64,000 bases of DNA from Rhodothermales bacterium (GTDB lineage Bacteria; Bacteroidota; Rhodothermia; Rhodothermales; UBA10348): contig JANQQV010000017.1 in the NCBI GenBank assembly GCA_028284865.1, forward strand, positions 62,001 through 126,000. Reading direction: 5' to 3'. Of the stretch, positions 6,872-62,228 are shown piece by piece (the first letter of the stretch is position 1; the number at the start of each line of letters is the position of its first letter). A model generated the notes under the pieces. It had not been told where the DNA came from. It worked only from the letters and a program-made list of their open reading frames with translations, and made no database searches. The position numbers were made by a program, and so were the translations under genes.

Positions 6872-7040
6872 GGATTCGGCGATGTATGGTTCAGGTGAGC
6901 CAAGCTACCCGGTCAAGCCCGCATCGGCAATGCCTCCGGACTGATGTGACACGAGGATGTCACCTTGTCCAGCGAAATTGAGGTCGATCACTCCTGAGAT
7001 CTACCACGCATTTCTCGCCTTTGTTTTATTCCGCCTGACC

Positions 7041-7628
7041 ATGACCTCCGTCGATTCCCTTCCCCGCTGCGCCTGGTGCGGTTCAGATCCGCTCTACGTT
7101 GACTACCACGACAATGAATGGGGTCGTCCGGTCCACGACGATCAGAAGCTGTTCGAGATGCTGATTCTCGAGGGAGCGCAGGCCGGCCTGTCCTGGATCA
7201 CGATCCTCAGGAAACGGGAGAACTATCGGAAGGCGTTCCACGGATTTGATCCAACGCGGGTGGCCCGCATGAGCGACGAGGACCAGGCGCGGCTATTGCA
7301 GAATGAGGGCATCGTCCGGAATCGCCTCAAGATTGCCTCGACGATTTCGAATGCCCAAGCCTTCCTGACCATCCAGGAAGAATTCGGATCATTTGATTCC
7401 TGGTATTGGGCCTACACAAATGGGAAGGTGATCGATAACGCACCTGAATCCATGTCGGACCTGCCGGCAAAGACCCAGCTTGCGGAGACGATTTCGCGGA
7501 GCCTCAAGAAACGAGGATTCCGATTTGTGGGGCCCACCATCGTGTACGCCTACATGCAGGCAACGGGTATGGTCAATGACCACGTTACGTCTTGTTTCGT
7601 CCGCCAGGAAAGGGCCCAAACGCCCTGA
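7041..7628 (+). CDS. tag: DNA-3-methyladenine glycosylase I
   Basis: A 195-residue base-excision repair enzyme that removes 3-methyladenine from DNA. RCAWCG at the start, YHDNEWGRPVHDD, QAGLSWITIL and GMVNDHVTSC near the end are Tag signatures; the Cys/His at the N-terminus and the His-x3-Cys at the C-terminus match the structural zinc site known in the E. coli enzyme. I chose the Met at 7041 (MTSVDSLPRC) because the 28 upstream in-frame residues have no family counterpart. The gene is monocistronic and is followed by a hairpin and DnaA-box-like sequences. Confidence 0.95.
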   Translation: MTSVDSLPRCAWCGSDPLYVDYHDNEWGRPVHDDQKLFEMLILEGAQAGLSWITILRKRENYRKAFHGFDPTRVARMSDEDQARLLQNEGIVRNRLKIASTISNAQAFLTIQEEFGSFDSWYWAYTNGKVIDNAPESMSDLPAKTQLAETISRSLKKRGFRFVGPTIVYAYMQATGMVNDHVTSCFVRQERAQTP

Positions 7629-7651
7629 CATGCGTGTAGGGGGGCGATTGG

Positions 7652-7859
7652 CCACACTTGTTAATGAAGTGTGGAAAACGTTGAAAAACGCCCAATTTCA
7701 GGTGTTACGGTACCATTACGAAATAGCAGGCTCTCACAAGTCTAAATAAAACAATGGTTTACGACTAGTCGATAGGCCGTTGGATCACAAAATGGCGATT
7801 GGAGCCAAATTCGGAAGGGCTTCCACCTGAAGTGGATAAGGTGTGGAAAACGTGGAAAA
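7652..7859. other. DnaA-box cluster, candidate replication-origin element
   Basis: This intergenic stretch between tag and mreB holds two head-to-tail pairs of 9-mers close to the DnaA box. 7670-7678 (TGTGGAAAA) is followed directly by 7679-7687 (CGTTGAAAA); 7842-7850 (TGTGGAAAA) is followed directly by 7851-7859 (CGTGGAAAA). A further box at 7831-7839 reads TTATCCACT on the minus strand. An 8-bp-arm hairpin (7652-7659 with 7667-7674) precedes the first pair, and the spacer around 7740-7765 is A/T-rich. dnaA is about 2.5 kb away. The boxes are seen directly; origin function is inferred. Confidence 0.5.
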
Positions 7860-7880
7860 CCCGGAAATCGTCGGATTTGC

Positions 7881-9953
<2,073 letters not shown>

Positions 9954-10366: not shown

Positions 10367-11911
10367 TCAGGAATGGAGGACGCGGTTTTTCAGCAACTGC
10401 TCGATACGCTCCAGTTCTTCCACGAACCGGGGGTCCGTATCGATACGAGCCTGGATCGCCTTGCATGCGTGGATGACGGTGGAATGGTCGCGACCACCAA
10501 ACCGACGACCGATGGCCTCAAGGGAGTGCTGTGTCATCCGCTTGCAGAAGTGCATGGCCACTTGACGCGCATCCACGATCGGACGCTTGCGACTCTTGCC
10601 GATCAGCAAATCGGTATCCATGTCGTAGTACTCGGCTACGATATCCCGAATTTGCGAGGCGGAAATGCTCTTGCGCGTGCGGTTGTCGATCAGGTCCGCC
10701 AGAGCATCCTGGACGAATGTCAGATCGATGGGCTGCCGCGTCACGCTGTGCAGCGCGAGCAGTTTGTTGAAGGCACCTTCCAGCAGTCGGATGTTGTCCT
10801 TCACGTTGTAGGCGATATAGTCGATGACTTCGCCCGACAACTCCAGTCCGGCCTCGGAAGCATGACGCTGCAGAATGGCCGTTCGCGTTTCCAGATCAGG
10901 TGGCTGCACGTCTGCGGACAGCCCCCAACGGAATCGGGAGAGCAGGCGCTCTTCGATTCCCGCGATTTCAGCTGGACTGCGATCAGCGCACAGGATGATC
11001 TGCTTGCCGCTCTGGTGCAGTTCGTTGAACAGGTGGAAGAACTGCTCCTGGGTCTTCTCCTTCCCGCCGAAGAACTGGATGTCGTCGACGATGAGTACAT
11101 CGATCTGACGGAACGCCTGTGTGAACTCGCCGAGCGTATTGTTCTGGATAGCGTAGACGAAGTAATTCGTGAACGCTTCCGACGTCAGGTACAGGACCTG
11201 AGCACGCGGCTGATTCTTGACGATGTCGTTTCCGATGGCGTGGGCCAGGTGGGTCTTGCCCAGGCCGACCTTTCCATAGATCAGGAACGGGTTGAAGCTG
11301 GTCTCGCCTGGACGTTTGGCCACGGCGACACCCGCACTTCGAGCCAGTCGGTTGCAGTCTGCCTCGAGGAATGTGTCAAGCGTGTACTTCGGGTTGAGCG
11401 TCCGCGGGAGCGATCCAGGGACCGTCTCAGGCTTGAAGGCAAATGGTGCTCCCGGCTGGGAAGGGGTCTGCGTGCCGGATCGCCCGGTACCTCGGGAATG
11501 ACCGGACGAAGACCGGTCGGCAGTGGAGGATGATCCAGCAGGTCGACGGGTGGACTGCGAGGAGCGTGGGGGTTGGGTCTCGCCAGCGGAGGCCCTCATT
11601 TCGAGTCGGGATGAATCGGCAGCGGTCTCAAGCTCAGCTTCGGCCTCGGCCGAAACCATGAAGGTATATGAGACGGGAGTATCAGCGCTCAAGTCGAGTG
11701 CTTGCTGAATGACTCCGCTGAATTCCCGGTCAATCCAGTCGCGATGAAAATCTGAGGGGACGCCAAGCGTCAAGTGGATACCATTGGGGGTATCGCTACT
11801 GGAAATGAACGAGAGGGGACGAATCCAGGTCTGAAACTGTTGGGTCGGGAGTTCCTGCGCCAGCTTTTCCTTGCTTCTCTGCCACAGCATTTCAGATGGG
11901 TAGGCCATCAA
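10367..11911 (-). CDS. dnaA: Chromosomal replication initiator DnaA
   Basis: 514 residues (513 if the second Met is used). Domain I spans about 1-90 (W-x-R-x4-LAQEL, FQTWIRPL), with a Ser/Thr/Arg-rich linker about 91-170. The AAA+ domain III carries Walker A GKVGLGKT (213-220) and Walker B VDDIQF; the sensor-type segment ERLLSRFRWGL follows. The C-terminal domain IV contains the DnaA-box-reading signature GGRDHSTVIHA. It binds DnaA boxes and melts the origin. dnaN is not adjacent, unlike in many bacteria. Three DnaA-box-like 9-mers lie upstream (12009-12053), consistent with autoregulation. Confidence 0.98.
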   Translation of the reverse strand: MMAYPSEMLWQRSKEKLAQELPTQQFQTWIRPLSFISSSDTPNGIHLTLGVPSDFHRDWIDREFSGVIQQALDLSADTPVSYTFMVSAEAEAELETAADSSRLEMRASAGETQPPRSSQSTRRPAGSSSTADRSSSGHSRGTGRSGTQTPSQPGAPFAFKPETVPGSLPRTLNPKYTLDTFLEADCNRLARSAGVAVAKRPGETSFNPFLIYGKVGLGKTHLAHAIGNDIVKNQPRAQVLYLTSEAFTNYFVYAIQNNTLGEFTQAFRQIDVLIVDDIQFFGGKEKTQEQFFHLFNELHQSGKQIILCADRSPAEIAGIEERLLSRFRWGLSADVQPPDLETRTAILQRHASEAGLELSGEVIDYIAYNVKDNIRLLEGAFNKLLALHSVTRQPIDLTFVQDALADLIDNRTRKSISASQIRDIVAEYYDMDTDLLIGKSRKRPIVDARQVAMHFCKRMTQHSLEAIGRRFGGRDHSTVIHACKAIQARIDTDPRFVEELERIEQLLKNRVLHS

Positions 11912-30705: not shown

Positions 30706-32004
30706 ATGGGACAAACGATCACACAAAAGATTCTGGCTCGTCATGCCGGACGGGACCGCGTCGCTCCAGGAGACAACATCTGGGTAGACGTGGACACGCT
30801 CATGACGCATGATGTGTGCGGACCACCTACGATCGGCATCTTCAAGCGGGAGTTCGGTGAGGATGCCAAGGTCTGGGATCCGGACAAGCTGGTGATCCTG
30901 CCAGACCACTACATCTTCACTGAGGACCCCCACGCACGACGAAATATCGAAATCCTGCGCGCGTTCGCGGCTGAGCATGACCTGAAGCACTATTTCGACG
31001 TGGGTACCTCCCGCTACAAAGGGGTCTGTCACGTTGCATTGGCTGAGGAGGGCTTCAATCGGCCCGGGACGGTCCTCTTTGGAACGGACAGCCATTCCTG
31101 CACGTCCGGAGCGTTCGGGATGTTCTCGACCGGCGTGGGGAATACGGACGCCGCCCTGATCATGGGTACCGGGAAGATCTGGGTGAAAGTGCCCGAGACG
31201 ATGCGATTCGTCTTCGAGGGGACGCTCCCGCCATGGCTGATGGCCAAGGATCTCATTCTCAGTGTCATTGGCGACATCGGATTCGAAGGAGGTACGTACC
31301 GTGCTCTGGAATTCGATGGTGAGGCCGTATTCGATCTGTCGATGGAGGAGCGGATGACGCTCACGAATATGGCCATCGAAGCGGGCGGCAAGAATGGCAT
31401 CATCGCGGCAGATCAGAAGACAGAAGACTACGTGCGGGCGCGGACCGACATGCCGTACGAATTGGTAGCGTCTGATCAGGACGCGCGATACATCTTTGAG
31501 AAGGTCTACGACGTTTCCACGATGGAGCCGGTTGTGGCCAAACCCCATCGCCCCGACAATCGGGCGACTGTTTCTGAAGTTGCAGGCACAAAGCTGGATC
31601 GGGCTTACATTGGAAGCTGCACGGGTGGGAAATATGAGGACTTCCTGGCAGCAGCCAACGTGCTGGAAGGCGAACGGGTGCAGGTCGACACGTTCGTCGT
31701 CCCCGCCAGCACTGAGGTCTCCAAGCAGCTGCGGGAGAAGACGTTGAACGGCAAGACCTTGTGGCAGGTGTTTCTGGATGCAGGGTGCAAGATGGGCCAC
31801 GCATCATGTGGTGCATGCCTGGGCGGTCCCGTGGATACGTTCGGTCGCACGCACGGCACGGAGGTGGTCATTTCCACGACCAACCGCAATTTCCCGGGGC
31901 GCATGGGATCCAAGCAGTCTGCCGTCTACCTGGCCAGTCCGCTCACGGTGGCTGCCTCGGCCATCCACGGCGTCATCACGGATCCTCGCGCCGTTCTCGC
32001 CTGA
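30706..32004 (+). CDS. leuC: 3-Isopropylmalate dehydratase large subunit (LeuC2/HacA type)
   Basis: 432 residues, the shorter archaeal-type LeuC subfamily rather than the about 470-residue proteobacterial form. It interconverts 2- and 3-isopropylmalate with LeuD. FGTDSHSCTSGAFG carries the first cluster Cys, IGSCTGGKYEDF is another cluster segment, and GHASCGACLGG supplies the final Cys pair of the [4Fe-4S] centre. TTNRNFPGRMGS binds substrate. It precedes leuD by 35 bp. Confidence 0.95.
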   Translation: MGQTITQKILARHAGRDRVAPGDNIWVDVDTLMTHDVCGPPTIGIFKREFGEDAKVWDPDKLVILPDHYIFTEDPHARRNIEILRAFAAEHDLKHYFDVGTSRYKGVCHVALAEEGFNRPGTVLFGTDSHSCTSGAFGMFSTGVGNTDAALIMGTGKIWVKVPETMRFVFEGTLPPWLMAKDLILSVIGDIGFEGGTYRALEFDGEAVFDLSMEERMTLTNMAIEAGGKNGIIAADQKTEDYVRARTDMPYELVASDQDARYIFEKVYDVSTMEPVVAKPHRPDNRATVSEVAGTKLDRAYIGSCTGGKYEDFLAAANVLEGERVQVDTFVVPASTEVSKQLREKTLNGKTLWQVFLDAGCKMGHASCGACLGGPVDTFGRTHGTEVVISTTNRNFPGRMGSKQSAVYLASPLTVAASAIHGVITDPRAVLA

Positions 32005-32039
32005 TCGATCTGCTCAACCAGCAATAAGAACGACGCATC

Positions 32040-32600
32040 ATGAAAGACCGCATTGAAGGGAAGGCGTACGTGCTCGGCGATTCGATCGACACGGATCAGA
32101 TCATCCCGGCTGCGCATCTGGTCTACAGCATGACCGAACCCGATGAACGACGGATGTATGGTCGATACGCCTGCAGTGGCGTGCCCAATGACCAGGCTGG
32201 GCTCCCGGAAGGCGGGAAACCGATGACCGATCCCGAAGCCTGGACGAGCGAATACACGGTCGTGATAGCGGGCTCCAACTTCGGATGTGGCTCCTCCCGT
32301 GAGCATGCGCCGTTCGCCCTTCAGGTCGCAGGCATCGAAGCGGTCGTCGCCACGTCGTATGCCCGAATTTTCTACCGCAACGCGGTCGATGGCGGGTTTG
32401 TCGTTCCGTTTGAATCGAGGGAACGACTCGTGGAAGAGATCCGGACGGGCGATGACATTATCATCGACGTTCCTGCCGGCACACTCACCCATGTTGCTTC
32501 AGGGACGACCCATCTGCTGAATCCGCTGGGAGATGTCGCTGACATCCTGCGTGCAGGCAACGTGTTCGAATACGCCCGGCAGGCCGGGTTCATCAAGTAA
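32040..32600 (+). CDS. leuD: 3-Isopropylmalate dehydratase small subunit
   Basis: 186 residues. The swivel-domain partner of LeuC. GDSIDTDQIIPAAHL near residue 14 and AGSNFGCGSSREHAPFAL near 80 are aconitase C-terminal domain signatures, and ARIFYRNAVDGG follows. Last biosynthetic gene of the ilv-leu operon; a regulator starts 17 bp later. Confidence 0.96.
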   Translation: MKDRIEGKAYVLGDSIDTDQIIPAAHLVYSMTEPDERRMYGRYACSGVPNDQAGLPEGGKPMTDPEAWTSEYTVVIAGSNFGCGSSREHAPFALQVAGIEAVVATSYARIFYRNAVDGGFVVPFESRERLVEEIRTGDDIIIDVPAGTLTHVASGTTHLLNPLGDVADILRAGNVFEYARQAGFIK

Positions 32601-32617
32601 GGTCAGCACCTCGAAAC

Positions 32618-32992
32618 GTGGCGCCGCGGAAGAAACAGATCGTGCTGACCCGTGCCGACGAGATGTTGCTCGTCTGTATTCTGGTGTTGGGAAACGACGC
32701 CTTCAGTACCACCATCACGTCCGAGTTGCATCGCCGAACGCGCAAGCGGATTACGGTCGGTAGCCTTTGGGTTGCGCTTGATCAACTCGCTACGAAAGGC
32801 TTGATCGAAAAACAGAATCGCCCGAACCCGGATCGCAAGGGAGGGCGACCCCGTGTGTACTACTTCCTGACCAAAGAGGGGCTGACCGCACTGCGGAAGA
32901 CTCGGGATGTACAGACAAAGCTCTGGAAAGGTGTCCCGGACCTGGATACCGTAGACGTTCTGGAGGCGGCGGATTCGGCTCCGGTTTCTTGA
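32618..32992 (+). CDS. PadR-family winged-helix transcriptional regulator
   Basis: 124 residues from a GTG start. The PadR winged helix is recognisable: ADEMLLVCILVLGNDAFSTTI, then SLWVALDQLATKGLIEKQN (recognition helix region), then the wing GGRPRVYYFLTKEGLTALR, ending shortly after. There is no long effector coiled coil, so it is the short PadR class. It lies 17 bp after leuD, so it is probably co-transcribed with the ilv-leu operon and could sense its state. No PadR target site is evident. Confidence 0.82.
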   Translation: MAPRKKQIVLTRADEMLLVCILVLGNDAFSTTITSELHRRTRKRITVGSLWVALDQLATKGLIEKQNRPNPDRKGGRPRVYYFLTKEGLTALRKTRDVQTKLWKGVPDLDTVDVLEAADSAPVS

Positions 32993-33042
32993 GGCGCAGA
33001 AGGCATGGGTGACGCCTTGGTCATGAATCATGCTCGCCCCGC

Positions 33043-33074
33043 TTGACGCGTATGAAGGAAAAGCCGTAAGTTCG
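33043..33074 (+). promoter_or_regulatory. Putative promoter of the arg leader/operon
   Basis: TTG at 33043-33045 (within TTGACG) and TAAGTTCG at 33067-33074, spacer 21, one mismatch from TAnnTTTG. If used as in other Bacteroidota, transcription would begin within a few bases of the leader peptide ATG at 33081, making that message leaderless or nearly so. The spacing matches the ilv leader promoter. Confidence 0.45.
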
Positions 33075-33080
33075 CCGCCC

Positions 33081-33179
33081 ATGAAACGCACTGCACTGCA
33101 TATCACTCGAGTTCGCCGCGACCGACGAGTCCGATCGGAATTCCGATCCGGATCAGGCCCGGCTGTGCTACGAGGGTAG
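33081..33179 (+). CDS. Candidate arginine leader peptide (attenuator) of the arg operon
   Basis: A 32-codon ORF: MKRTALHITRVRRDRRVRSE, continuing to a C-terminal VLRG before TAG. Nine of 32 codons are Arg (residues 3, 10, 12, 13, 15, 16, 18, 22, 31), six of them CGA, and five of the nine lie within residues 10-16. It ends 38 bp before a strong intrinsic terminator (33218-33249), with argG starting at 33318. A perfect 16-bp palindrome (33133-33148) overlaps the end of the Arg cluster. CCGGATC (33148-33154) can pair with GATCCGG (33223-33229) in the terminator's 5' arm. This layout matches ribosome-stalling attenuation. The peptide and elements are seen directly; the mechanism is inferred. It is too short to be identified by homology. 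Confidence 0.68.
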   Translation: MKRTALHITRVRRDRRVRSEFRSGSGPAVLRG

Positions 33180-62000: not shown

Positions 62001-62228
62001 ATGGCAGCAGGATACTGGGACGTCATATTGATCACCTTTGTAGGCTTCGTCGCGTTGGCGGCGATGCTGCTGGTTCCTGTGTGGCGATTCCTGTCCCGGG
62101 AAGAAGAGGTCGGTGACGGGTTCTCCGATGAAGTGAAGGGTCACGCGAAAGACGATGTTTCCAGCGGTGGTCCTGCGTGGGTGAACGACCTCAAGTCTCC
62201 CTCAGAGGATCATAACCCGCCATCCTGA
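62001..62228 (+). CDS. Small membrane protein of unknown function
   Basis: 75 residues. One hydrophobic segment near 9-28 (VILITFVGFVALAAMLLVPV) is followed by an Arg and a charged C-terminus (FLSREEEVGDGFSDEVKGHAKDD). No family recognised. The 3' end overlaps the convergent ComEA-like gene by 19 bp. Supported by open frame, membrane segment and position in the envelope cluster only. Confidence 0.55.
   Translation: MAAGYWDVILITFVGFVALAAMLLVPVWRFLSREEEVGDGFSDEVKGHAKDDVSSGGPAWVNDLKSPSEDHNPPS

Follow-up and report, generated by a model that had tools for sequence, protein, structure and literature searches.

Among the closest described counterparts of the locus analysed here are the datA and DARS loci, both of which are well studied in Escherichia coli. 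As described in parts of PMC5742627 and PMC4585315, datA is an intergenic locus whose essential DnaA boxes all face one way, with an IHF site separating box 2 from box 3; IHF loops the DNA, and the spacing matters. The DARS core, in the account given in a section of PMC5742627, has its box I in the opposite orientation to boxes II and III. In Bacillus subtilis and Streptomyces, box clusters outside the origin are thought to hold DnaA (sections of PMC5295017 and PMC5742627), and titration in E. coli is treated in part of PMC12371093. For the group to which the present organism belongs, no account of an origin, a dnaA paralogue or a locus controlling DnaA was met among the papers listed by our searches, which exclude subscription papers, and neither was the element presented below; queries for 'datA' are noisy and also match 'data'.

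Here we analyse a window of 64,000 nucleotides (positions 62,001–126,000 of contig C21) from a Rhodothermales genome of 3.48 Mb in 28 contigs, G000, together with its relatives, of which those with names are uncultured Rhodothermales/Bacteroidetes metagenome-assembled genomes. The analysis places a candidate control site, element M, beside mreB and a second dnaA gene, and locates the likely oriC at pgi.

Results

Two pairs of DnaA boxes between tag and mreB

The noncoding gap at 7629–7880 of the window (252 bp) is bounded by the convergent 3' ends of tag (+) and mreB (-). M consists of two boxes offset by 11 bp, then a spacing of 160/161 bp, and then a second 11-bp pair. All its DnaA boxes share a single direction, the pairs are head-to-tail, and the 11-bp offset corresponds to about one helical turn. 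The features of the region are as follows.

6957–7628, + strand: tag, methyladenine glycosylase; left neighbour, varies among relatives
7659–7667, + strand: DnaA-box-like site L0, TGTTAATGA, 11 bp before L1; relatives have TGTTRATGA or TGTGGANNN here
7670–7678, + strand: DnaA box L1, TGTGGAAAA
7679–7687, + strand: extra contiguous box CGTTGAAAA, partly conserved
7735–7764, no strand: central AT-rich dyad motif CACAAGTCTAAATAAAACAATGGTTTACGA, symmetry peak at +79 from L1; also picked up by a motif scan; model hit at E 0.835
7749–7761, + strand: IHF-like site AAACAATGGTTTA, at +79 from L1; differs from WATCARNNNNTTR at one position
7831–7839, + strand: DnaA box R0, AGTGGATAA, 161 bp after L1
7842–7850, + strand: DnaA box R1, TGTGGAAAA, 11 bp after R0
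7851–7859, + strand: extra contiguous box CGTGGAAAA, which most relatives do not keep
7881–8891, - strand: mreB, the constant right neighbour; M lies beyond its 3' end
10367–11911, - strand: dnaA2, a divergent second dnaA
12009–12037, - strand: DnaA-box-like sites TGTTGATAA and CGTGGATAA, upstream of dnaA2

An earlier note on this DNA had drawn attention to contiguous 9-mer pairs in the gap, and each of its 9-mers is indeed present where the note had placed it. However, the conserved unit is the 11-bp-apart pair on each side; the contiguous 9-mers are only partly conserved, as judged by eye, and the left outer box L0 had been overlooked. Two copies of TTTTCCACA occur in the 64-kb window, both in the tag-mreB gap, and TTATCCACA is absent from the window. 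When DnaA boxes were scored in 300-bp windows, the M site ranked first on its 347-kb contig (9.0, the next site scoring 3.7), and the M copy of a congener likewise ranked first in the surrounding 400 kb.

The spacing of M is retained among relatives

We matched mreB in 56 of 60 genomes and examined 30 mreB loci, 24 of them from the family of the present organism (f1). M is found in 22 of these 24 loci, the exceptions being L103 and L104; it is absent near mreB in genomes G011 and G026, and the six loci from other families carry no M within 1.5 kb of mreB. Of 60 relatives, with the own genome counted in, 10 have the site by DNA search. The L0-11-L1-160/161-R0-11-R1 spacing is kept in 20 of the 22 elements (159–161 bp, with all four boxes; L097 has its L0 at -11, by eye and on rescanning, and L099 was re-anchored for this count), leaving G008, with 151 bp, and G009, in which R1 has decayed. 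Counted over 24 copies of M, 21 have 160/161 bp, two have 159 and one has 151, which is a constrained spacing of the datA type.

An unconstrained rescan, in which spacings of 110–229 bp were allowed, recovered M in 17 of 22 dnaA2 loci, which were drawn from another collection and are largely of the same species as the mreB set. The losses were L291 and L292, which end before M, and L294, L300 and L304, which fell under the threshold. In this rescan M always lies beyond mreB, with its boxes directed back toward that gene. None of 66 shuffled loci held a four-box arrangement of comparable quality. Furthermore, a degenerate paired pattern with a spacing of ~150–176 bp matched at 35 places in 19 of the 27 family genomes, some of these matches being likely due to chance and others coming from a second locus, N, described below, against none in the reversed control; at spacings of 177–207 bp the pattern gave 8 matches in 6 of 27 genomes and 4 in the control. 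By the shuffles and the reversed control, the paired boxes exceed chance.

The mean ungapped identity between genera inside M is 0.31 (nine genus representatives), and thus it is the length of M that is retained and not its sequence. The distance from M to the end of mreB ranges from 24 to 718 bp. One genome, G007 (L295 / L281), has a tandem mreB pair with an M of its own after each copy, at spacings of 159 and 161 bp.

A dyad and an IHF-like site at the centre of M

Averaged over 21 M elements (all but G008), complementarity is highest at +79.0 from L1, where its value of 0.448 (z 7.7) exceeds the rotation-null maximum of 0.365. AT content is likewise highest around the dyad centre (0.77 at +81), and the aligned dyad motif of M is nnTAAnnnnnTGAAAAACAAnnATTTAnGn. 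A hairpin in each single M was considered and rejected: inverted repeats in individual elements are mostly non-significant, and significance is reached in the stacked profile only. In six f3 elements the profile was barely over the null and off-centre (0.515 versus a null maximum of 0.500), and we therefore do not claim dyad symmetry for these.

Exactly at +79, 12 of the 22 M elements (13 if +80 is counted) have a sequence one mismatch away from the IHF consensus WATCARNNNNTTR, as printed in a section of PMC8407004, and the biggest stack at one position in 200 local shuffles was 3. One-mismatch matches anywhere in the element occur in 16 of 22, versus a mean of 6.5 and a maximum of 12 in local shuffles. 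These one-mismatch matches predict a likely IHF/HU-type bending site at the centre of M. A crude motif scan of a partial sample, ~1.45 Mb from two genomes, did not find an IHF/HU gene.

A 30-position dyad model searched genome-wide gave matches at E<=2 in 19 of 27 genomes (best 0.02), and many of the matches in AT-rich genomes are probably due to chance. The model alone is weak: M stands at E 0.835 in its own genome, where the dyad upstream of the other dnaA gene, dnaA1, is not recovered at E<=2.

The neighbouring dnaA is a second copy

The earlier note had placed dnaA about 2.5 kb from the boxes. The position is right, but the gene is a second, divergent dnaA and not the canonical one. Indeed the window gene, dnaA2, is one of two in all seven genomes of the genus and in all six other f1 genomes tested. 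The other copy, dnaA1, lies at C8:237,470–238,990, 58 kb from the pgi gap described below, and the two are 46–48% identical within the genus. In a midpoint-rooted DnaA tree, dnaA1 falls with the canonical dnaA of the order and dnaA2 forms a separate group (99/99); 13 of the 57 rows in this tree have fewer than 350 residues (one matched domain each), and we rely on the tree for the A1 and A2 groupings only. Both proteins retain Walker A, the arginine-finger region and GGRDHSTV. Elsewhere in the order, families f2, f8, f13 and f14 include genomes with a second dnaA, which may have arisen separately.

The region upstream of dnaA resembles M

The upstream regions of canonical dnaA genes carry a four-box arrangement with 11-bp pairs on the dnaA sense strand, the pairs being mostly 129–144 bp apart. 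For 49 such regions (L211 was dropped as too short) the mean best score was 21.5 on the sense strand, 13.0 on the antisense strand and 10.7 in shuffles, and the null 99% cut was passed by 41 of 49 on the sense strand and by 9 of 49 on the antisense strand. With the pair gap set to values other than 11, 17–31 of 42 upstream regions still pass this cut, and it is the mean score that separates gap 11 from the others (22.3 versus 14.8–16.5). Several upstream regions, from f1 and elsewhere, score low.

We made a dyad matrix from 14 M elements of other genera and ran it over 655 kb on both strands, where it ranked the dnaA1 upstream region first (16.5) and M second (16.3), with the next independent site at 11.7. 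Upstream of f1 dnaA1 genes, 6 of 12 genomes examined have 110 bp between L0 and the dyad. The distance from L1 to R0 is 216–218 bp in G000, G001 and G005, and also in G007 and G012 if L1 is assumed to be L0+11; the dnaA1 upstream regions of G002 and G014 show neither the 110-bp nor the 216–218-bp distance. In the f3 elements L1 to R0 is 138/139 bp. M and the dnaA1 control region thus have common parts in a common order, with different fixed spacings. Helical phasing between families is at most suggestive.

Just upstream of dnaA in the Rhodothermus-like loci L189 and L191–L195, near-perfect TGTGGATAA-11-TGTGGAAAA pairs occur twice, 138/139 bp apart, with varying inverted repeats in between.

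Chromosome copying most likely starts at pgi and not at M

The earlier note had offered M as a candidate origin or a DnaA-titrating locus, and had named a GC-skew minimum and coverage peak elsewhere as evidence against the former. On skew the origin proposal finds no support: cumulative GC skew is monotonic across M in its own genome, where the skew of C21 is positive nearly throughout, and in a congener the skew falls steadily through the M copy over the surrounding 400 kb. The own-genome minimum is at C8:179,569, in or at the edge of a noncoding gap of ~590 bp next to pgi, which begins at C8:178,893 and contains DnaA boxes and ATCCACCGCCCCTATTACTA. The skew of this genome is weak, with a flat bottom from ~170 to 237 kb of C8, and so does not by itself discriminate pgi, at 179 kb, from dnaA1, at 237 kb. 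In the congener G004 the minimum is at 1,066,568, ~10 kb from pgi (1,076,766–1,078,160), which has ATCCACACCCCCTACTACTATCTACTA downstream. In the Rhodothermus-like complete genome G028 the minimum, at 31,161, is ~0.6 kb from pgi (31,796–33,085), and dnaA, at 13, is 31 kb off. We chose pgi over dnaA1 as the origin because this last minimum adjoins pgi.

DnaA-trios (BUS), as defined in part of PMC8287927, follow a DnaA box within 16 bp, and looser trios are allowed. Counting only cases of at least two trios in the strict CTA/TTA form next to a box, we found a box plus trio in 16 of 30 pgi loci, 1 of 30 dnaA loci, none of 30 mreB loci and none of 22 M elements. Given these counts and the skew minima, the likely oriC of these bacteria lies beside pgi, and an origin in this place is likely in several families of the order. 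It is not universal, as the box clusters of L064 (a pgi locus cut by the contig end), L079, L086, L088 (3.0) and L090–L092 are weak or absent. Dense DnaA boxes, many with box-plus-trio, were seen in L063, L068, L075, L080, L083 and other pgi loci.

M itself has the box cluster of an origin but neither a skew minimum nor a box-trio. On the skew and the missing trios we reject a main origin at M, and chromosome copying most likely starts elsewhere; of the two options in the earlier note, it is the titrating type of locus that fits. In G015, a 4.5-Mb genome, M lies on one contig with the pgi locus and ~608 kb from it, and thus M might be copied fairly early, judging from this one genome only.

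Locus N (G000 C8:302,432–302,635; L008:12433–12635) has DnaA boxes upstream of a ribonucleotide reductase gene, together with CAATAACGG motifs; the enzyme has a B12-dependent look, by eye. As a rival origin this locus was rejected for its distance of 123 kb to the skew minimum. Box pairs ~150 bp apart with CAATAACGG are found in many genomes of the order.

Discussion

Taken as a whole, M is best explained as a free-standing DnaA-binding control site that is not an origin, a prediction to which we give a little better than an even chance. The best reading of its sequence is of a datA-like locus that resembles the dnaA control region in its design and sits with the dnaA2-mreB cluster. M may hold back or inactivate DnaA. 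In the mechanism we propose, DnaA (DnaA1 and/or DnaA2) would bind both pairs cooperatively and an IHF/HU-type protein would bend the centre, such that the two DnaA groups could meet in a loop. In the manner of E. coli datA, this complex would lower the amount of DnaA that is free or bound to ATP, and so restrain initiation at the pgi origin. Titration, hydrolysis and reactivation at M are not distinguishable from sequence. The geometry of M (pair, 160/161 bp with the dyad within, pair) is exact and open to helical-phase insertion tests.

A possible though unlikely alternative is that M controls transcription, with DnaA looping regulating the dnaA2-mreB cluster or its neighbours and so coupling replication to cell elongation. 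The same design does lie upstream of canonical dnaA, and M accompanies mreB even to the point of following each of the two copies in G007. However, M in the window is between two convergent 3' ends, and therefore no promoter is expected there; moreover its left neighbour is variable and it stands anywhere from 24 to 718 bp beyond the end of mreB. More doubtful is the idea that the family keeps, with its two DnaA proteins, a matching second control module, a dnaA2-mreB-M cluster. In it M would be a relocated copy of the dnaA control region and the target of DnaA2, and would serve as a dedicated brake, or as a second origin used conditionally, tying initiation at the pgi origin to the cell-elongation gene mreB.

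It is improbable that M is an origin, either an auxiliary or relic one served by DnaA2 or the true oriC. The box arrays flank an AT-rich centre and a dnaA gene is nearby, but a skew switch is absent at M in two species, the skew minima are at or near pgi in three genomes, and no M has a box-plus-trio. We consider regeneration of ATP-DnaA at M, in the way of a DARS site, distinctly improbable, although M is a noncoding DnaA-box locus with an IHF-like site, as its unidirectional boxes do not match the opposed box I described in part of PMC5742627. A noncoding RNA or an element of the mreB mRNA is very improbable, although a hairpin could form from the symmetric motif inside M: an Rfam search of M gave no matches at E<=1, conservation falls on DNA motifs, DnaA boxes and IHF-like sites, that are also present upstream of dnaA1, and M can be up to ~700 bp from mreB. 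A chance cluster of AT-rich 9-mers is scarcely credible: single boxes do mean little (TGTGGAWAA occurs 41 times in the genome versus 30 in the reversed control), but the geometry is retained across genera and was never reproduced in the 66 shuffles.

The predicted non-origin control site can thus be set beside the known systems. Like M, E. coli datA is noncoding, intergenic and away from oriC, with its essential boxes in one direction and a constrained spacing; its IHF site between box groups would have a counterpart in the predicted IHF-type site of M. Unlike datA, M is built of two 11-bp pairs ~160 bp apart in the design of a dnaA upstream region, and is linked to mreB and a second dnaA; hydrolysis of DnaA-ATP is a property of datA. 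DARS1 and DARS2 of E. coli are also noncoding DnaA-box loci, with IHF at DARS2, but their cores have one opposed box and M has none. The clusters of Bacillus subtilis and Streptomyces resemble M in being DnaA boxes outside the origin, whereas M differs from them in its fixed spacing and central dyad. The dnaA upstream region of the Rhodothermales themselves has, like M, two 11-bp box pairs and, in f1, the same dyad. Its pairs, however, are ~129–144 bp apart in most families and ~216–218 bp apart in f1, compared with 160/161 bp in M, and unlike those of M they are directed toward the start of dnaA.
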